A DNA stretch of 64,000 nt, from the NCBI GenBank assembly GCA_030248295.1, contig JASANH010001081.1, positions 1 through 64,000 on the forward strand. The letters run 5' to 3'. Shown here in pieces: positions 1 to 23,665 of the stretch (positions are counted from its first letter, which is position 1; the number at the start of each line of letters is the position of its first letter). Source of the stretch: Mesodorylaimus sp. YZB2_4. Lineage: Eukaryota > Nematoda > Enoplea > Dorylaimida > Dorylaimidae. Position numbers and translations under genes: made by a program. The notes under the pieces are model-generated. The model searched no databases, had not been told where the DNA came from, and saw only the letters and a list, made by a program, of their open reading frames with translations.

Positions 1-480
1 CACCGGACACAGGAACCACAGCCTACTACGTCACACAGAAAAAAAGCAGTTTTGAAAAAAACGTCTTTTATTACTTACTTGATGATTTATCGAGGGCATC
101 GTCATTTCCCAGTTTTGAACGGTCTCCGAAAAGTTTTCTCCCAACAGCGGTAAAGCCTAACGTAGCAATAACGAGAAAAATCGGTACACGTATTCTCATT
201 TTCATGGAGATGGCAATCGTATATCAAGAACCAACCGTCCCTAAGCAGTCAATTTGTTGACACCCAAGACTTTCCACAACGCCATTTTTACGAATGCAAA
301 TTCAGTTTAAGGTCAGACATCACTATTGTTGCGATTCTAGTCTTGTAGAGGCAGTATTGATGCCTTGAATAAATATTTCGTACTTTCCTCTCTCGACTCC
401 TACAGAATTCCTGTTGAGAAATAAAAACTCGTGGGCTCAATTGTTCGATTTGTTCAAGATCCTGTAGAGTGGAAAATGCT
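1..480. other. non-coding, no gene seen
   Basis: No convincing open reading frame, splice-site pair or repeat structure was seen before the duplicated GPCR flank begins near 481. Confidence 0.5.
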
Positions 481-925
481 GTTTAGTAAATCCTGTAAGT
501 ACTCCGCATAAACACTTTTCTAGGCGTTGCAGGAAACTGGATTGCCATAATAGCACCCATTGGTGAATGTCGTAGCGCGATTTATGAAAATTCCGACAAA
601 TTATGCGGTACACCCCTACTCAAATTGAAGTGACATTTCTGGTTCAAAAATGCAGCTAATTTTTGTGATTTTGGTTGATGGGTGCAGTTTGGACGGCTGC
701 AGTAAGAATATGGACCGAGCACTCCTAAGACTTATCGTTAGCACTAAATGGGAACAGGCGAGTGGTGTGAGACAGGTAAAGGAATTGGAGCGGAGAGGCA
801 GCGCGGGCAGAATCTTATCGTTAGTTATGCACTGTGCAGATCACAGGACAGTCATAAGCTCACAAAGACATGAATGTATGACAAACACTGACAGTAACTG
901 GCACGTAAAATTTACTCTTGCGCCG

Positions 926-2516
926 CAGGTTTGCAGAAAGTTCGTGTCCCACCTTTGGTCCCCGCACAGTTCGTCCCCGAGCAGTTTCGTCCCCTCACAT
1001 TTCGTCCCCAGACCATATTTTCTGTGGGGGGGGGGGGGGGACGAAATGCGCGAAATGCTAAAGCGGACGTCCATTTTTAGGGGGTCAAAGCAAAGCGAAA
1101 TGGATGAAAGATGAAGGTGGATAGGGGCTGGGGAGACAAGAAAACGCACTTTTTGGTGGACGCGTTTTATGGATGGCCCCTTCATAAATTCCGCTCACGC
1201 ACTCACTTACTCAGTCTTGGTACAATCATAGGTTGTGTGCAAAAATTGATGGTGAAAAATGCACTTTTTTGTGATGATTTTTATTTGACCCTTCCCTCTT
1301 GAACAATGAGATCATTACGGACTTTGAAGGCGGCCTGATTATGTTTATCACTACTGCAGGCACAATGAGGATAAAACTTACATTATAGCTGAAAACATGT
1401 GACATGTGTCCATGTTTTTATTAGCGTTCTTTCGGGATCATTATTTTCGGGATCGGTATCGGGATCGGGACTCGCTCAATCCCGACCGGGATCGGGATCA
1501 GGACAGGATCGGGATTTTTTAAGGAGAGCGCTTTTCATTGGCTATAGACGATCTACAACCCACCCTGAGTAGCCAGCAAATTTAAAAGCCACAGATTGCC
1601 TTTCCTTGGATAATTTTCAGTGCAGTATTTATCATTGCATACAAAATCAGACAAGCGAAGAATCAGTTACAAATTAGCAAACAAATCCCTTCCTTTCCCT
1701 CTATCAATTCAATCATCCGCCAAGGTCTCTATATTTCCCCTTCTGAAACATTTTGATGGCCGTGACCATCTGAGTCAGTGTCAAGCAGAATGTCGCCAGC
1801 TTCTGCAGCAGGCCCACCATCTGATGATGGCAAATGCGGGCTGTTACTACATCCAACTGGGCGCAAATCGTGCATCAGAAAAAGCAGGACTTGTGCATTT
1901 TGTGGGAGTAGTTTCATCCGATCGCCATTACAGCTCGTTTCCCATACACCAGCCCCATTCCCTGTTGCAATAAAAACATTCTATCTGCACAATATTCAGT
2001 CCCCAATCCCGACCACTTTTTATCGAGATCGGGATCGGGTTCGGGAGGGGCAATCCCGACCGGGATCCCGAACGAACGCTAGTTTTTATAGCCAACAGCA
2101 AGCAGCAGCAGAGTGCGCGAAATAGATGAAACAAGTTGAAACAAATTAAAGTGTTTATTCCGGTTTTCTGTGATTTCAAAAAACATTGCACCTTCCTCCC
2201 ACCCAGCTTTACTCAAGAAAAACACGAGCTTAAAAAATCTAAATGAGCTTGTTTGGGCTAGTCCGTTGGTTAAGTGCTCTACTGTAGATCTAGGACTAGC
2301 TGTTTCGTAGAGTACAAAAGACTTGTTCGAAAAGCGTTGGTGCTGTACTGAATGTCCCATCGGCGAATAACGAGGATCAGTGTTTTGCCATTTGACCTGT
2401 CGTCATTAATTACCTCTTAAATCTTTTTTGAGCTCTTAATATTTTATGTGGGGACGAAATGAGGGGACGAAATATGAGGGGACAAAATATGGGGGACGAA
2501 CTTTCCGTATCCCTGC
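926..2516. mobile_element. non-autonomous TIR transposon with GTCCCC-rich termini
   Basis: The left end (926-1035) carries repeated TTCGTCCCC units, and the right end (2448-2516) carries the same units in reverse complement (GGGGACGAA). The extreme ends read CAGG.....C.GAAAGTTCG in inverted orientation. The filled site interrupts sequence that is continuous in the GPCR 3' flank near 6690, which confirms insertion. No transposase is encoded. A probable 8-bp target duplication is TGCGCCGC (920-927) against TGCACCAC (2514-2521). It overlaps the terminal bases, so the exact boundary is ambiguous. The element contains a second, younger insertion. Confidence 0.75.
1422..2081. mobile_element. hAT-type MITE nested inside the larger element
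   Basis: The left end TAGCGTTCTTTCGGGATC (from 1422) and the reverse complement of the right end TAGCGTTCGTTCGGGATC (to 2081) differ at one base. The element is flanked by a perfect 8-bp direct repeat GTTTTTAT at 1414-1421 and 2082-2089. An 8-bp target duplication and a TAGNG-type terminus are hallmarks of the hAT superfamily. Subterminal sequence is built from repeated GGGATCGG units in both arms. The 660-bp interior has no credible transposase, so the element depends on an enzyme encoded elsewhere. Confidence 0.85.
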
Positions 2517-2830
2517 ACCACACCTACTGAACACGGCTCGGCTGTTATGTGCCGCACAATATGACGCGTGAGAAGTATCGAAGGTTTGGTTGTCGGTGAC
2601 AGATACGCAATGCGAGCCAGAAGTCATGCTACTACGCATTCTCGACTGGAGTGGGGAATGTTGAGGGCTCCATGGCCATTGAATGATTGCTGGTTGGCTG
2701 AATGGTGGTTATGTTTGTTGAGAAACGAACCAATTGGTGGATAGTACCGTACAATGCATTTTTGGGCGAAACTTTTAATGCGCATATAAATATGGAATTG
2801 TGTCATACGATCGCCGCTGTGAAATATACT

Positions 2831-4216
2831 AGAAAATAGGTGCTACACAAAGATTCATACCACGTGCGGGTCCGCAATTTGTGGGATAAGAGCTTCAATC
2901 GAACGAGGTGAAAGAATACGTTGGACGCTCGCTGCATAATCCCGCCAGAGAATTCAAAACTGATGCAAGCGCGCCTGATGCAATTAATTTAGATTTTCAC
3001 TACGGTCCTTTTACGTGAACACTTTCGTTTACTGCAGAGTAAAAATGTAAAAAAATTATATTAACTTCGACAAATCTGACCAGTGGCCCATTACTGCAAA
3101 AATGGTAAAGGTGCACATTTTAGGTGGAATTCGCTTTACTGCACAAACTCAAGAATCACGGTCCAAATCCAATTATAAACAAAACAGTGTCATGCTATTT
3201 TTGAAATAACTGCGATCAATATGATTTAGTGAAATGATTTTATATGTTGTAGTCACCTCACGAATAATTTTGTAGACTTAATGATTCTTGGGAGTCAACG
3301 TCAACGACTCTTTCAGTGCTTCTGAATATGCGGACAGTGGCGGTGCCAAGGCTTTGCCCTTGTGAGAGAAATCAGGCATTAATCCCTACCTGGTCAAATT
3401 TGGGGACTCACATTCTACAGTACAGGGGTCCACACATTAAAAGTAGTTTTTGATACCTCGTCAATCGATCAAAATTTCATGAAATTCCGCCGTAGGCTTC
3501 TCGGATATCATGTCTCGTGGACAGGTTGAAAAATTATCGAAATCCATCACGCGGTTCTTAAATGGCGCCGAAAACTTCTCCTGGAATTATGAAGACTTCC
3601 TCTGTGAATTACTGTACTTCATTTTTGTTCGAGCGACAAGGACTACCTTCTAGCATGAGCATCGTACTTGATGTTACAAAGAGAGACCACTACCGCAAGA
3701 GCCGTATGCACCAACGAGACTAACTCGATTTAGTTTGCTGACTTTTGCTAGCAAGCGAGTTAGTCAAGGAAAGTCAAAAAAGGTTGGTGGAACGCAAATT
3801 TCAGTAGGACTTCGGTTAGTCGACTAACCACTAAACGATACAAAGCTAACAGCAGTTAGATGGCTCAACAGTTGGTACCGTTGATGGATACGGCTGCAGG
3901 GAAGAAAAAGAATCGATAACTGAAAAGCGTTGGTTCAGAGTCAGACGAATGCGGCTGCTCGCACGCTGAGGACAGCAGCCTACAATCGCAAACGTGGTCG
4001 AGTATTGTTGTAAAGTTACTCGAATTATCGTCCTTCCTGGCTCTTTACAGTCCCAGCGTGATCAGTCTGAAATAGTGTCATCTTATTTTTATATCTAGTA
4101 TGTAGTCGTGCGCAAGCCCTCGCTACATCTGAATGCGCACTAAATCAGCTTACGATTAGTATCGTCCGTCTGCCTTCTATCCATTTCGGATATCCCATGC
4201 GGTAGGTCAAGTACAA
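2831..4216. other. non-coding interval
   Basis: This is AT-leaning sequence with no supported exon. Nothing beyond short chance reading frames was seen on either strand. Confidence 0.5.
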
Positions 4217-5113
4217 ATGGCTAACGGAAAAAATTTAGCTTTTATAGCCATCGTGTCTTGGCTTGCAATTGCTGCAATTTTTCAATGGTGGGATATTATC
4301 CCCATATCAAAATACGGTCTTCTAAATTCGATAGAGCGTTCATCGTCAGCCATTTCAATGCCTTCGGCCGCAAATGACGTCGCCTCCAGTTCAAGTCCTT
4401 CAATGAAATTCAAGACGATGAATCCAGCCTCGATTTCGACAACCAAAGCTGCTTTAATCGACAAGTGGGCTTTGCTGAAAAGGTACACAACTACAAATTT
4501 AGTGTGCCCCAATAAAGTGAGGGTTGGGAAAGAAGGTCAAGGAGATGGTGGAAAATGGGCGTGCGCGCCATGGAAAGCTGCGGGAGACAACTGCATTGTC
4601 TATTCGTTGGGTGTGTGGAATGACGTGTCTTTCGAAAGTGATTTGTACAAACGAAGTAAACATCGATGCAAAACGTTTTCTTTCGACAGCGTCCAGCAAT
4701 CTTTAAATTTATTCAAACCATTCAACGGCACCTTTATGAAAGTCCATTTGGCTGCCGTAACAAACGCGACTGAAAACAGAATGTCCCTCTTCGATATCAT
4801 GAAACACTACAACCACACACGACTGGAAATTTTGAAGATGGATATCGAAGAATGGGAATTCGAAGTTATGAATTCTTTTTTGGAATCAGTCGAAATAACT
4901 CCAGCCAAAACGGTAATTTGCCAATTTCTCGTCGAGTTTCACGCATTTTTCAATTTGACCAAGAAAATCGATCTTTGGTTGCCAATGTTTGAAAAGCTAG
5001 AGAAAAACGGCTTCCTATTATTTTCCACTGAAAAGAACGTAGATTGTTGCCATGAGTTCAGTTTCATGCATGTTAGCTGTATGCGCCAATATGGCTTGCC
5101 TGACTTCGAATGA
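4217..5113 (+). CDS. METTL24-like membrane-anchored methyltransferase, copy A
   Basis: This intronless gene encodes 298 residues. Residues 8-25 form one hydrophobic helix preceded by a short lysine-containing N-terminus, which predicts a type II protein facing the Golgi or ER lumen or the outside. A Ser/Thr-rich linker (about 41-75) leads to a domain that resembles the Methyltransf_22/METTL24 family: GDGGKW (109-114), the glycine motif YSLGVWNDVSFE (129-140), FD (156-157) and KMDIEEWE (207-214). In this family these positions form the S-adenosylmethionine pocket. The substrate is unknown. An 80%-like paralogue lies at 14870-15763 on the other strand. The start is the first ATG after an upstream in-frame gap, and it matches the paralogue. 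Methyltransferase identity is inferred from motifs, and activity is unproven. Confidence 0.85.
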   Translation: MANGKNLAFIAIVSWLAIAAIFQWWDIIPISKYGLLNSIERSSSAISMPSAANDVASSSSPSMKFKTMNPASISTTKAALIDKWALLKRYTTTNLVCPNKVRVGKEGQGDGGKWACAPWKAAGDNCIVYSLGVWNDVSFESDLYKRSKHRCKTFSFDSVQQSLNLFKPFNGTFMKVHLAAVTNATENRMSLFDIMKHYNHTRLEILKMDIEEWEFEVMNSFLESVEITPAKTVICQFLVEFHAFFNLTKKIDLWLPMFEKLEKNGFLLFSTEKNVDCCHEFSFMHVSCMRQYGLPDFE

Positions 5114-5252
5114 TTTCCTAGAATCTTTGAGTAGGAACATGCAGCACTGATTCTCCTCTATTTTGAATTTGGCACATAATGCTGATTATAGTATTAATTC
5201 ACAGAACAAAAATATTGCAGTGATCATATGCATGTGAACTTTTTAGATTAAA

Positions 5253-5258
5253 AATAAA
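5253..5258 (+). terminator. polyadenylation signal AATAAA
   Basis: This AATAAA lies about 140 nt after the stop codon of the METTL24-like copy A on the same strand. Confidence 0.5.
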
Positions 5259-5508
5259 GGTTAAAGCGTGTATGGTCTGGATATTGCAATCTCTCTGAAA
5301 CAACGAGTTTAAAAAGAACCAGAAAATCACGAAGCAGGATTGCATTAGTCATAGATAACACTTCCAAGTTCAGAACTCTTTCAAACTGCATTGGACAGCC
5401 GCCCGACAGGCTGTATCATCTATGAGCTCACTCGATGTATTCTAGATTCACAGATATGCCTAGGTTGCGCAGCTTATCTGGGATTGTTCTAGTGTTCCTA
5501 GTGTTCAA

Positions 5509-6249
5509 TCACCTGGGTTTTTTACTGTCTGACCTGACCCTGACCTTGACCAGACCCCAAAAAATTTTCTGACTTTGACCAAGGGTCGGTCAATCAGGGT
5601 TTTGACAGAATTCTGACCTTGACATTGAGGTCATTTCTCACAGTTTGTCCAAGCGAACCAGTCCGTTCCTGCAGTAGATCGCTGGACCAAGTTCAAATTT
5701 CGGCCAAATTTTTTTCAAATTTTACAAGGCTGGTTCAGAGACTCTAGCGGGGGGCACAGTGGCGCATGTGTTGGTCAATCATTTTCTAAACCGTGCAGCT
5801 GGCCCATCGTCGTTTTGGGAAGATCAGACAGCTACTTATCCTAGTATGGCATCACTGGCTCAAAATATGTCAACGATTCCAGCTACTTTAGCGCCAATGG
5901 AACTCGTATTTTCACAGCGCAATTACTTTCACATTTTCATGTAGCTACTGCCGGTTGAAAAAAGCGTTTGTCACGGAAACAGTTGCAAACATAAGTGATG
6001 CAACGGTTTTTTAAATGGTGTTATGTTAAAACAAGTTGAGCAATTGTGAAAAATTTTTCATTTTTCAAAAAAAAATTTTTGTGAAGGGTATTTTGTGTCA
6101 ACGTCAATGTCCAGTATTTTTGTCCCTGTAAAGTCAAACTCAAGATCAAAACAATTGCGGACCCCGTATAAAAGTCAATGTCAGGGCCAAAATTTTTTGG
6201 CGCTGTGGTGGTCAAAATCATAGTCGAAGAAGACAAAAAACCGACGTCA
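5509..6249. mobile_element. non-autonomous element with long inverted ends and TGACC subterminal repeats
   Basis: The left 110 bp (GGTTTTTTACTGTC then repeated CTGACC/TTGACC units and CCAAAAAATTTT) reappears in reverse complement at the right end (to 6249), where it reads GGTTTTTTGTCTTC, TTTTGACC and CCAAAAAATTTT. The right edge coincides with the point where similarity to the duplicated GPCR flank (481 onward) starts. No clear target-site duplication was found, so the superfamily is open. No protein is encoded. A short 61-codon reading frame inside is probably chance. Confidence 0.65.
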
Positions 6250-6810
6250 TTTAAAAAACTGAAGTGCTCCGCATAAGCACTTATCTCTACATATATACTT
6301 TACAGGAAACTGGATTGCGATGTGCTTTATTGCTGAATATCACCGTAATTTATGAAAATTCTGACGAATAGCATCCACCCAGTACACCAGGGTGACCAAC
6401 TCGCAGCAACTCAACTTTGGCTCAGAATTGTAGCGATTGCTCATGTTTTGGCAGGCGCAGGCTGGACGGCTGGGACAGAACATGCTCCGAGCATTCGTGG
6501 GGCTCACTGTCAGCGCTAAATGGGAGGCGAGGAATATGGTGAGATACAATACAGGTAACCGAGTCGGAGCGCGTAGAATCTACGGTAAATGTACTGTACA
6601 GATTGCAGAACAGTCATAAGCTCACAAAGACAGTGTATAACAAACTCTGACAGTTGAACTGACACTGTGAAAAATATTTTAAACTTGCACTACGATTATT
6701 GCTGAACACGACTGTTGTGTGCAGCTCAATATGAAAATAAAAATAAAAACTATCGAAGGCTTGTCTTGTTTATCATTGACAGATATACAATTCGAGCAAG
6801 AAGTCATAGA

Positions 6811-8133
6811 TTAGTCTACATTTTCGACTGGAGCAGGGAATACTGAATTCTTCACTGCCCTTGAATGATTGCTGACAGTGAATAAGTTGGTTGGTAGCTG
6901 ACCCTCTTTTTTGAAAAGCGAAACGAATGCATCTCGGAACTTCTTCATGCAGATCACATAGAGCACGAAGCGGGCGCAGTGATCAACTTCGCCAGTTACT
7001 GACTGAACCATCCATGTCCACGTGTACACCGCTTTGTGATCGATATCTTCCATGGCAGTGGCATAGCTGAGATAAACGATCGCTTCGGGACCGACAATGT
7101 CGTTTTGGTCACGATCCTTGATCACCTTGTTTAGAACCCAGGTAATATGATCGATTAAAGTAGATATGGCCACGACCATTTGCAGAGCGCAAAGTCGCCG
7201 AGTACTCGCCCACTTCTCCTTGCCTGTGCTGGTCAACGTTTCGGCTTTCCTCGATTTGATGATGAGACCGGCAGCCACGAAGATGCAACATACAAAAATG
7301 GCGATACAAGTTCCGATTTTGATGGCGTAGATGATAGCTGATACCATATCATTGCCGCCACTCCTTCCGTACGCGTTCAAGTATTTGACATAGAGACCGG
7401 GTTGCTCAGGATCGGGAACCGGCATCCCGCAAAACGCTGGGCTGAGGTGCAGCAGACCAACCACTGTTGAAATGGCAATGAAATACCAAGCCACTTTGGA
7501 TTTATTGATACGAGTGAATTGATTCGGGGACCAGATGGCCACGCAGCGTTCGAAGGAGAGGAATGTGGTCACCGTGGTCACGCTAAGCTTCATGGCATCG
7601 CCAATGGTCCACATGTAGAGCAGGAAATCGCGATACAGAATGTAGCTGTACGACTCAGAGAAATTGATTGGACTGAAAATGCCCGCCTGAAATAGGAATA
7701 CACTGCGATGATGTCAGGATAAAATACTTTGGACATTGAGACACTTGGCAGGGGCAATTGAATGGCATGGAAGCAGGAGTACTGTAGGAGAGCAGAAGCA
7801 GGATTATGCAACTCAACACTGAGGCTACACACAAATTCTTACCTGCAGCATGACAGCCATGTGCACAAACTCCATGATGACCATCGATTTGTGATAGAGA
7901 TAGCTGGGACCTTGAAACGTCGGCAGTCTGAATGTCAATAACATGAGAACATAGCACAGGAATCCTGCAGCCCCCGCAAATATTTGGCTGTAGTAGACGC
8001 CCAGAGAAATCTTCAGTTCTGTGGCTGTCCATTCTGTGTACTTAACGCATAAGTCAACCAGTTGCTGACAGCTGAAATTAGTTGACCCATGGCGTAGAGC
8101 AGACGAAAAATCACACGTCGTTGTACAATTCAT
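6811..8133 (-). CDS. rhodopsin-family GPCR (FMRFamide-receptor/srw-like), two exons
   Basis: Exon 1 is 8133-7843 and exon 2 is 7686-6811, joined in phase 0 through a 156-nt GT-AG intron, giving 388 residues. The extracellular N-terminus is Cys- and Asn-rich. Seven hydrophobic segments follow. TM3 ends in SFERC, in the place of the usual DRY, and is followed by VAIWSPNQ. TM7 reads HCARFVLYVICMKKFRDAF, with no NPxxY but with the basic helix-8 pattern seen in FMRFamide-like and nematode srw-like receptors. The ligand is unknown. The ATG at 8133 is chosen because the longer frame only extends to a TTG at 8157, just below an in-frame stop. A further upstream exon cannot be excluded. Its 3' end has been duplicated near 0.5-2.8 kb. 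Confidence 0.8.
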
Positions 8134-8159
8134 TCTTGGCTTAGTGCAATTTGACAAGG

Positions 8160-9952
8160 TTGACTAACACCTCGAAACGATGAACTTCTTTTTGCGTCTA
8201 TGAAATGTACAGCTCACTCATTTGAAAATAGCCAGCACATACCCCTTTGCTACGTAATGGCGGTAGCCACGCATGGAATAGCCTTTGTCCACTACTACAG
8301 ACCCCGATATTCCTCTAGCTACCTCGAATCGGAACTTTCTTTCATGTGGGGGAGGAGAGCAAGTTATATCTTGATTTATAAGCCAAGTAAGCTTTAGAAG
8401 GAAGACGTCCAGCAACTGAGGAATGATCTCATTACTCAAATCTTTTGATAACCCCCGCGCAGAACACATAAGGTGAAATTAATGGGAAATAGGCTAGTTA
8501 GAACAGAGTTTTTTCTGAAATACCTGACGAATATGGTGCAAAAATTTACTGCACACATACAAGTTCTTCAGAAAGTTGGCCAAATGCCTCCTTCTTTGCG
8601 AAACCAAGGAAAACATTCCTTGATTAGGCTCTTCGTTCACTTTCCCCATTGCTTATGGAGCCCAACTTCTAGCCAAAACCAGCTGTTCACTGTTTGACAG
8701 CTCCTACGACTAACTGCTCCGTCCAAGTCGTCAGATATGAAGAAAGTTGCCAAGAGACACGACCAGCCGTCACAACATGTCTGCTTCCAATTCCTTTTTA
8801 AAATTCATTGAACATATCAAAAGGAAGAACTGAATAATTCAATTTTATCTTTGGTTCCTGATAGGCTCCGGTTCATCCTTAACACACGGAGACAAATAGT
8901 ATAGTTTTCGAAATTTTTACCTGACCGAATAAAGGAGTTTACTGTAAAAAGTATTTTTCAAAGCGGAATAAAGTCATCATATTTCCTCTCTAGAAACGAT
9001 CTACAGGAAGAGACGTGTCTTCCGGATAGGCCGACAAGGACCCGACATGATCATTGGCTCACCTAGGTGGCACCGGATCCGCTCGAGATTAGGATCCCCT
9101 ACGTTACATATCCAGTTATATACAGTCATGAAAGTGCTTTCTTGTCATATGCTCTGAGAACCCAAAAATCTGTCGGATCGAACATCAAAACCTGACAGTC
9201 ACCACAGACGTGGGAAAATAAGTGCTCTTAGGCAGGAGGATCAGGTAGGCTTTATCAAAAGCTCGAGAATCTTTTATTCTTTCACAGTATACATAATGAA
9301 TAGTGAATGAACTCAAAAGGAACTGCTGCCGATCGTAAGGCAAAATTCCATTCCTTTGTGCACTCGGTGAGAAACGTATTTGACGGCCGCTAACTGTGCC
9401 CCGCGCAAAGGCCTGACTGGCTGGCGTCAAAGAAACAATTTCCCAAGCAAAAATTACTTAAAACGAAAGAAAGTCATGCATTTCCGATGAGGAGGCGAGC
9501 TAATGTCTTGTGTACCCACGGTTTATTCAGAAACAAAAGGCAGCAATGAGAGGAGCCGAGCCGCACATAAACTATACCAGCACCTGCAAAGCAGCTTGTA
9601 TGCCTTATGAAGACAAAAGACATCACATCGGCATGTTGACGCTCGGATTGAAAGCAGCCCGGACAGTAATACAACAAGAGCTAATAGCCGCACAGTATTG
9701 TACGTATAAGGTAGATGGGAAAACCTAATCACAGTCCTGATCAGGTGCAGCTGCTCAAGCAGTATAGACTCCCAAAGTATGGCTTAAAAACATGAAGAAT
9801 TATCAAATATAGAGACGAAGTAACGGGGGGGGATGGAGACTTTATTTGGACGGGTCTGCGACTATGTATTGCGACTGCAAAGAAAGCGTGTGCGCGATCA
9901 CAGACCCTCAAAAACAGCCGCGACCTAAGACTTAAGAAAAATGCGTCCTGCA
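8160..9952. other. non-coding interval
   Basis: Only short unsupported reading frames are present. No splice-consistent gene or TIR structure was recognised. Confidence 0.45.
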
Positions 9953-21151: not shown

Positions 21152-23665
21152 CTAGTCCAACAATTTAATCACATATCCGTCAGCATCACCCATGACCAAG
21201 GGCTTCTTAAAATCTATTTTGTCATTCACGCCATATTCAGCGTTGGCTGAACTGACCACGACCTGCCCAGTGCCAGTTCCCAATCCATATTCAATAGATA
21301 CACTCTTTCCATCATGCCCCAAATTTAGTACTATCAAGTAGCTGGACTCTGCAGTTAATTCCCGAGTGAAGGCGAAAATGTCCTCGTTACTGAGCTCGAT
21401 AAGACGGAGATTTGTGGCCACTTTAAAAGCAGGTTCGTGTCGCAGCTTCACCAAGTTTTTGAAAATGTTCAGGTGGGATTTGACATCCTTGGACTCAAGT
21501 TCAACGTTGAATGCCGCCCAGTCTGGTCTAAAAATTGAAACCACTTTTGTGGTGTGCTAGTTTGAGGAGTTGAAAAGCCCTCACCCCATCGGCAGCCAGG
21601 TCTTATTGCCCGTGCTAAATCCTCCGTTTGGCGTAGTATCCCACTGCATCGGAGTTCTCTCAGGATCTCTAGTAAAATTCATATATCCATCGGGACCTCA
21701 CTTGCAACCTGCAGGGTCAACAGACTCTTCGTAAGTGATATTCGCGTTGATCATACCAATTTCGTCTCCATAATAGCACGTCGGGGTTCCTTTAAAGACA
21801 CCGTGCAGGAAAAGCCAGACGAAGATCAGTTCAACGCACCTGGCAACATTAGCAGCAGCATGTTGGCCACATCGATGTACTTACGCCCACCCAAACGAGA
21901 GGCCACACGATTACGATCATGGTTCCCCATGACCCAATTAGGCCAGGCACCAGCTGGCATGCTGTTCATCCACGAAGTGATCAGGCTTCGCAAACCTGGA
22001 GCGTTGGTTGTGGAGTCGAGTGAAATCAAGTTAAAATTGAACGGGAAGTCCACACCGATCGAACAGTACTTCATGACGTGCGCGACATCGGTGTAACCTT
22101 CAGTGCACCTAAAGAGTGCATAACATAATGGGAACATGCTGAGAAACCATCATAAAGGGTTCAAGACAACTGCAATAACCCAGGTCGCCCCCTAGCGGTA
22201 AGGCGTCTGCCTCTCACGCTAGCTGCACACATACCCGGGATGGTTCGACTCCCGCCTGGGTAAAATGATGGTCAAACATGTAAGTGATGCTTAGCCCTCG
22301 AGTGCGCTGTATAGTGCTTGGCTATGAATAAAGCGGGACATGACCCATTCGAAAATGCCGAAAGAACATGAGAGTCACTGGCTAACCAAAGCCGCGACTT
22401 GATCAGCCCAGGGGTCGATTCACCGCCTGAAGCAGGGTGGGAGGCCCACCTGAAATCCTTCATGACAATTAACTCGACTCACATAAAAATGTGCTTGTTA
22501 TATGGGGCGCCATAGCTTTTTAAAGCCAAAATCCAATCCTTGACGACGTCGTAGGTTTCTTGCAAATCTTCTGTGTAAGTATGGTTTAAATAATAATAGT
22601 TATTCGAGGGGACGTCTTCGCCGCTCAAAGGCTCGTCTCTAAATTGAGCGTCTTCCACCAAATATATGACGGCATCCACACGAATCCCATCAACTCCTTT
22701 GTCGACTTAAAACTTCAGAACGTCCTTCATTTCTTTAACTAAATTCGGATTTCTATAGTTCAAGTCCGGTTGTTGGGGCAGGAACTGGTGGAGATAATAT
22801 CCTTGCTGGTTTTCTTCGAAATCCCATGTACTATTGCCAAAAATGCTGAGCTAAAACCAATATGGAATTCCAATTTCTGCTAAAAGCTAGGCGCTGTCAA
22901 AAGACTGTAATGGGCGGAGATGATAGCCAGCTGCCTCGCCTGCAAGAGGGTCGACTTTGCCCCTGACAACCTCCCCGCTTTATGTTTTGTACTATCAATA
23001 TGTGCGAGTCCATGTGATCTCTCAATCGCACTCACCCAATTGTTTGTCACATTCCGCCAGACATAATAGTCCTTTTAGTGCGGATCGCCTTTCAATGCTT
23101 GTTGAAACCATTAATGCTGATCGGAGCTGTGGTTCGGAACGAAGTCCATTATCAGGTACATACCTGCAAAGAATCTTGCCCTAATTTCCCTGAAACCGCA
23201 GGGTTAGGTTTACTCACCATATTTGTGTATCTCCGCAACTAGTGCATCAAAATCCTCCATTGTGCTGAACATAGGAGCTATATTGGTGAAATTGCTGATG
23301 TCGTATCCAGAATCGACCATGGGACTTTCATAAACTGGTGATAGCCACACGGCCTTGATGCCCAAGTCGTGCAGGTAGGACACTCTTCTCTTTACGCCTG
23401 TCAAGTCCCCAATACCATCGCCGTCTGAATCTTGAAACGATCGCGGATAGACTTGATAGATCGGAGATGATTTGTACCAGTCCCAGTCAGGTGTTGGCAG
23501 TGGTGTTGTGCTACCAAGCTTGGGCGAAGAGGACTTTAGCTGTGTGGCTTCTTTGTCCGTAGAAACTTCGGACAAAATGACAGCTGCCACTATCAATGCC
23601 GCGATGGCCACTGCTAGAATGATGGCCAAGATGACCATCAGAATGAGGACATGACTTCTCTCCAT
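21152..23665 (-). pseudogene. membrane-anchored GH13 maltase pseudogene, six exons, four stops
   Basis: Exons are 23665-23218, 23163-23036, 22850-22483, 22108-21840, 21789-21585 and 21527-21152. All splice sites are intact, and lengths match the intact paralogue exactly for exons 1-5 (448, 128, 368, 269, 205 nt). Four codons are nonsense: TAA at 23111-23113 (Tyr in the paralogue), TAA at 23075-23077 (Tyr), TAA at 22707-22709 (Trp) and TGA at 21698-21700 (Trp). The N-terminal anchor, the (beta/alpha)8 barrel motifs and the C-terminal sheet domain are otherwise readable. In the nucleophile motif the paralogue's GFRVDA is GIRVDA here. Intron 3 contains a tRNA-derived SINE. The absence of frameshifts suggests the gene was lost fairly recently. 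Confidence 0.88.
22184..22345 (+). repeat. tRNA-derived SINE, tail type 1
   Basis: Polymerase III box A TAGCGGTAAGG (22193-22203) and box B GGTTCGACTCC (22242-22252) sit at tRNA-like spacing in a tRNA-like head. A tail with CCTCGAGTGCGCTGTATAGT and GGCTATGAATAAA follows and recurs at 27956-28003. The SINE lies in intron 3 of the maltase pseudogene, opposite to the host strand. The tail and head divergence argue for a SINE rather than a working tRNA gene. Confidence 0.75.

Follow-up and report, generated by a model that had tools for sequence, protein, structure and literature searches.

A hAT MITE nested in a Mutator-like element with Foldback-type ends within the decayed duplicate of the 3' end of a receptor-like gene

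The stretch of DNA analyzed here (the window) comprises the first 64 kb of contig C87, part of a genome of 145,146,385 bases and 1067 contigs. Positions 1 to 9000 of the window were read, two blocks resembling the tail of a receptor-like gene were aligned, the genome was searched with each layer of the structure, and related copies were examined. Three layers are present at the locus: a decayed duplicate of the gene's tail, a Mutator-like element (MULE) within the duplicate, and a hAT MITE within the MULE.

The receptor-like gene, source of the duplicated 3' end, lies on the minus strand at 6811 to 8163, with open frames at 6811 to 7713 and 7825 to 8163. Its frame matches Pfam 7tm_1 with an E value of 0.0056, and because this falls under the curated Pfam cut-off, the label GPCR is plausible but not proven. 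The uninterrupted counterpart of the duplicate extends from 6250 to 6927 on the plus strand. Alignment and genome search placed the left half of the decayed duplicate, which corresponds to DNA downstream of the gene, at 482 to 918 (plus strand) and the right half at 2527 to 2729 (plus strand), the latter also recovered by tblastn. Positions 482 to 921 aligned with 6250 to 6688 and 2527 to 2692 with 6702 to 6874, in the same order and direction, and a wider alignment extended the right block to 2729 and 6927, respectively. The local alignment scores were 200 (left), 105 (right) and 290 (joined), whereas 100 base shuffles of each reached maxima of 30, 29 and 30. The alignment of 481 to 2830 with the region around 6243 to 6900, which the initial annotation had suggested as a check, thus established that the blocks are homologous. 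A genome search with 6243 to 6900 gave three matches, namely, the query itself, 497 to 904 (67% identity) and 2539 to 2692 (70% identity); no further copy was found in the 145-Mb genome at E values up to 0.001. Moreover, a coding relic at 2638 to 2718 on the minus strand of the right block retains 15 of 27 C-terminal residues of the receptor-like gene (tblastn E value, 0.004). Since the blocks align and form a single pair in the genome, and the right block keeps these C-terminal residues, they represent a direct partial duplication. The initial annotation had seen here a relic of a GPCR 3' end with an intact version near 6690; the duplicate stands, but most of the duplicated piece (about 560 bp) comes from beyond the gene's 3' end, with at most about 39 codons included, and the receptor label is weakened as described above. 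Between the two copies of the tail, at 4160 to 5113 on the plus strand, lies a 317-codon open frame that matches Methyltransf_22 (E value, 1.6e-18) and also the FkbM domain Methyltransf_21 (E value, 9.6e-9).

The outer element, a non-autonomous MULE derivative recognized by its ends, copies, target duplications and link to MULEs, occupies 928 to 2513 and would measure 918 bp without the inner element and one copy of the latter's target duplication. Its left terminal region (928 to 1012, plus strand) begins with the tip GGTTTGC, followed by an array of five GTCCC units at 946, 958, 973, 989 and 1004 (spacing, 12 to 16); the right terminal region (2447 to 2513, minus strand) begins with GGGATAC-GGA, followed by four units in the complement at 2451, 2464, 2479 and 2493 (spacing, 13 to 15). 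The inverted GTCCCC-rich arms proposed in the initial annotation were thereby confirmed, but its limits of 926 and 2516 were not, and since the units sit in an array inside the tips, from 946 on, GTCCCC is a subterminal repeat and not the terminus. Comparison of copies gave GGTTTGC-GGA at one side of outer-type elements and GG(G/C)ATAC-GGA at the other; the tips read GGTTTGCGGAAAGTTCGTCC at one end and GG(G/C)ATACGGAAAGTTCGTCC at the opposite end, and an irregular array of units with TTCGTCCCC follows. The left and right tips agree at four of seven bases. The ends consist of short tandem repeats whose number varies between ends and between copies, which is characteristic of Foldback-type elements. 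A run of 15 G at 1026 to 1040 adjoins the left terminal array, and similar runs of G or C were seen in the arrays of loci L015, L022 and L025.

The genome contains further copies with these ends, as the initial annotation had anticipated: the left end gave 38 matches and the right end 37, with the query counted in each, and a pattern for the two ends, at most two mismatches being allowed, was found at 71 places, compared to 4 for the reversed control. The divergence of the outer element from four relatives, two of which represent one insertion site, was 0.19 to 0.32. Four copies of one element have their flanks in common; two lie inverted on C735 (L025; C735:15226-16312 and 21348-22436), and the others are L026 and L027 on C199; they reflect either segmental duplication or insertion within another repeat.

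Comparison of the copies also exposed a 9-bp target duplication that the initial annotation had missed. In the window, TGCGCCGCA at 919 to 927 and TGCACCACA at 2514 to 2522 agree at seven of nine bases; 83 of the 63,991 9-mers of the window equal or better this match to the left flank. Target duplications were scored in 19 elements with both ends recognized, each distinct insertion in the loci examined being counted once; these loci were taken from the end and transposase searches and are a sample, not every genomic copy. Left out were copies with the flanks of an included element (L014 with those of L011; L026, L027 and the second copy on C735 with those of L025), loci with a single recognized end (L003, L007, L008/L024, L028, L030, L058, L059 and L061) and more distant relatives (L050/L073, L051, L052, L053 and L055). 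When a shift of one base was allowed at each end, the flanks agreed at seven or more of nine bases in 14 of the 19 elements, at eight or more in 11 and at all nine in 7, whereas 342 cross-paired flanks gave 4, 0 and 0, respectively. In exact register, 9 of 19 reached at least seven of nine, compared to 1 of 342 in the control, in a list that still included the C74 element dropped later. Five of the 19 elements, among them the Pfam-matched element on C80 (6/9), have flanks that agree at six bases or fewer. The outer family thus shows target duplications in the range of 8 to 11 bp typical of MULEs, with the window copy at 7/9.

For L016 and L017, an 8-bp duplication is the best reading of the flanks. 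Outside the 19, L052 (on C33) and L055 (on C137) carry perfect 8-bp duplications, GATCAGGA and GCAAAATC, and no target duplication was found in the flanks of L053. L052 and L055 are related MULE copies whose ends differ somewhat (GGTTGT... and GGCATTC-GGACAC) and represent sister families that share this layout. On C74, a 6.2-kb element appeared to have a perfect 9-bp duplication but was dropped because its left end at 412220, together with the surrounding DNA, recurs around 417810; only the 632-bp element at 417810 to 418441 was counted. This region (L043 and L029), in which about 5.6 kb that include a MULE frame separate 412220 from 417810, is probably a tandem duplication.

The inner element, which the initial annotation had placed at 1422 to 2081 with a perfect 8-bp duplication, has exactly these limits, and the duplication GTTTTTAT is present without mismatch on both sides, at 1414 to 1421 and 2082 to 2089. 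Its 18-base ends are 94% complementary, and a hAT-like coding remnant lies on its minus strand. A genome search gave 589 first-look candidates, 40 of which were scored, and the near-full-length copies listed were 92 to 94% identical; 12 other copies compared directly were 94 to 96% identical to the window copy. The exact 18-bp end occurred 388 times in the genome (191 plus 197), compared to 0 for the reversed control. The window copy diverges by 0.044 from the majority of the 12 relatives, which themselves diverge by 0.004 to 0.032. Of five other copies with eight bases available on both sides, three had 8/8, one 6/8 and one 2/8 matching bases, and seven copies with shorter fetched flanks gave 4/4, 5/6, 3/4, 0/4, 6/6, 7/7 and 1/1. 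The 8-bp target duplication expected of hAT elements is found in perfect form in the window copy.

Among 94 hAT-domain matches listed, 25 loci were read, and the exact 18-bp end was found in one of them (L095); L097 had it with four mismatches. The hAT element in L095, at C237:124588-127249 (2089 to 4750 of L099), has both 18-bp ends with 0 mismatches, a perfect duplication, ATTCAGAA, and a 677-codon open frame with a match to PF05699 (E value, 5.4e-15). The MITE aligns in reverse orientation with the two end regions of this element, at 74% and 78%. The shared ends, the open frame and this alignment strengthen the assignment to hAT made in the initial annotation and indicate that the inner element is an internal-deletion derivative of a C237-like transposon, which becomes a candidate source for the whole MITE family with its 589 first-look candidates. 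Like hAT MITEs in general, the inner element combines short inverted ends with an 8-bp duplication, occurs in hundreds of short copies and is an internally deleted form of a hAT with the same ends; no difference from them was seen other than its own sequence.

The order of duplication, outer insertion and inner insertion given by the initial annotation holds, being consistent with the nesting, the uninterrupted tail and the divergences. That the inner element arrived after the outer one is fixed by the nesting. For the other two layers, insertion after duplication, instead of before it with loss from the other copy, is the simplest order, because an uninterrupted tail exists and the target duplications are present in the other copy only. 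The divergences of 0.044 for the inner element, 0.19 to 0.32 for the outer element and 0.39 between the two tails agree with this order, but they are divergences between copies and not insertion dates, since the families have subfamilies. If the outer element had predated the duplication and been excised precisely from the copy at 6690, the first two layers would be reversed. Such excision has a precedent, since about 90% of the revertants of Muta1 in yeast were precise when target duplications flanked the donor, according to the available part of that study (PMC5225508), and the two alignments alone offer nothing against it. However, this scenario needs one extra event, the matching site in the intact copy (6689 to 6701) has no element remnant in the alignment, and the divergence of the outer element from its relatives lies below that between the tails; we regard it as improbable. 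More improbable still is that the two blocks are no gene duplicate but belong to an interspersed repeat that only by chance adjoins the 3' end of the gene: the duplicated stretch is largely non-coding, but the genome search returned this pair alone at E values up to 0.001, and the match continues into the C-terminal codons.

The initial annotation had left the superfamily of the outer element unnamed. A Pfam search of the genome for MULE transposases gave 147 listed matches, and one of these, C80:175342-175620, falls between the two ends of an element on C80, whose frame matches PF10551 with an E value of 4.5e-14. The C terminus of the C80 transposase matched inside at least 8 of the 19 elements, those on C80 (the query itself), C396, C155, C146, C48, C173, C735 and C130. 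The first seven of these MULE-containing elements have the same ends as the outer element; the C130 element entered the set via the transposase search and not via its ends. Further matches of this query lay next to single ends on C21 and C44 and within the C199 duplicates. On C311, a single frame of 387 codons contains both a FLYWCH domain (residues 21 to 81; E value, 3.2e-12) and a MULE domain (residues 207 to 298; E value, 1.6e-12), each over the cut-off, and on C21 the two domains lie in adjacent frames; in both cases they lie between arrays related to those of the outer element. The Pfam scan of the C311 frame (387 amino acids) found only MULE and FLYWCH and no PHD finger, the mark of Rehavkus. 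The search for further copies and an autonomous relative, which the initial annotation had proposed, thus gave transposase-bearing copies with the same ends, but in none of the loci read was an uninterrupted FLYWCH-MULE frame seen with exactly these ends (C311 contains a stop, and the frame is split on C21 and C130).

The window copy itself carries a MULE transposase relic, FADGTFSTAPTLFEQVF, at 2317 to 2367 on the minus strand (best E value, 3.3e-6; the best among 200 codon shuffles gave 0.002). Its FADGTF motif carries what we take to be the first catalytic aspartate of MULE transposases. The relic comprises only 17 to 26 residues, 47 bp of the outer element are 85% identical to the C80 coding region, and of 15 related loci, only 3 matched the inner part of the element at the DNA level. 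The outer element is a member of the Mutator superfamily with Foldback-type ends. Judged by the searches for MULE sequence, it is highly unlikely that it belongs to another superfamily with duplications of 8 to 9 bp (P, Merlin or hAT) and carries the MULE fragments as passengers. The 8-bp duplications of L016 and L017 would fit such an origin, and Foldback-like ends occur together with a P-type transposase in Galileo, as the parts of two reports available to us describe (PMC3169594, PMC3573991). However, the mosquito element Muta1 is a MULE and generates both 8- and 9-bp duplications, according to the portion of its description at hand (PMC5225508), MULE sequence lies inside at least 8 of the 19 two-ended elements as well as between the related arrays on C311 and C21, and the window element bears the relic itself. 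The FLYWCH-MULE combination of the Phantom group was found in the related copies on C311 and C21 and not in the window copy, and the outer family resembles Phantom in architecture only.

We propose that the 3' end of the receptor-like gene was duplicated together with downstream DNA in direct orientation and that one copy decayed. A MULE, a deletion derivative of a FLYWCH-MULE element with Foldback-type ends, would then have inserted into this copy by cut-and-paste, generating a 9-bp target duplication, and a hAT MITE would later have inserted into the MULE, likewise by cut-and-paste and with an 8-bp duplication. For both insertions, full-length relatives presumably provided the transposases in trans, and the terminal repeats of the outer element may be transposase-binding sites. 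The homologies, the ends, the target duplications, the nesting and the relatives that bear a transposase between identical or related ends are direct observations. We assign the whole account, from a duplicated and decayed tail via insertion of a non-autonomous MULE to later insertion of a hAT MITE, a probability of about 0.93. The layering is ordinary genome history, and we propose no function for it.

The closest parallel to the outer family is Tm1 of root-knot nematodes, a Mutator/Foldback family with a FLYWCH-MULE transposase of the Phantom type; what follows on Tm1 is taken from the accessible part of its description (PMC3169594). Tm1 likewise has 9-bp duplications and end-specific 7-bp tips, followed by GGA and by tandem repeats of 13 to 15 bp in variable number. 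Compared by layout and domain positions, its FLYWCH domain spans residues 5 to 66 and its MULE domain residues 197 to 294, compared to 21 to 81 and 207 to 298 here. Tm1 also has MITE-like and deleted derivatives, and one described copy holds a nested element. The tip and repeat-unit sequences of the two families differ, and in the family described here the tips agree at 4/7. Muta1 of Aedes aegypti, a MULE of the Phantom group, shares duplications of 8 or 9 bp, many non-autonomous derivatives and long ends with 12-bp subterminal tandem repeats separated by spacers of 3 to 4 bp, and was called a type 2 Foldback element in the portion of its report at hand (PMC5225508). It differs in that its ends measure 145 bp and are tipped by a 10-bp imperfect palindrome, which was not seen in the outer element, and it was proven active in yeast, whereas the outer family is known here from sequence alone (PMC5225508, available part).

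According to the part of a survey available to us, MULE target duplications measure 8 to 11 bp, and Rehavkus has a PHD finger, whereas Phantom has FLYWCH, SWIM or no such domain (PMC6446971). Rehavkus resembles the outer family in its 9-bp duplications and a minisatellite near one end but differs in the PHD finger, in place of which the C311 frame has FLYWCH (PMC6446971, same part). Tetris, a Foldback element of Drosophila with duplications of 8 to 10 bp, was likewise assigned to Mutator (PMC4079207, available text). A study of tardigrade repeats names MULE and hAT only in superfamily lists in the portion available (PMC11071193). Among the literature titles listed for Mutator, Foldback, FLYWCH and tardigrade transposons, none was on the outer family, and of the listed titles matching the terminal repeat letters, none was on transposons.

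For the outer element, a superfamily and true ends can now be given, and a single locus yields a clean relative chronology. With its end design, the family also provides another example for comparative study of the recognition of tandem-repeat ends by MULE transposases. It is possible, although we put this forward only tentatively, that the composite MULE end, with its end-specific 7-bp tip, GGA and an array of units of about 14 bp, is a design for transposase recognition conserved between distant animal hosts. If so, the tips would mark the left versus the right end, and the letters would drift while the layout is kept, as in Tm1 of nematodes and in this genome.
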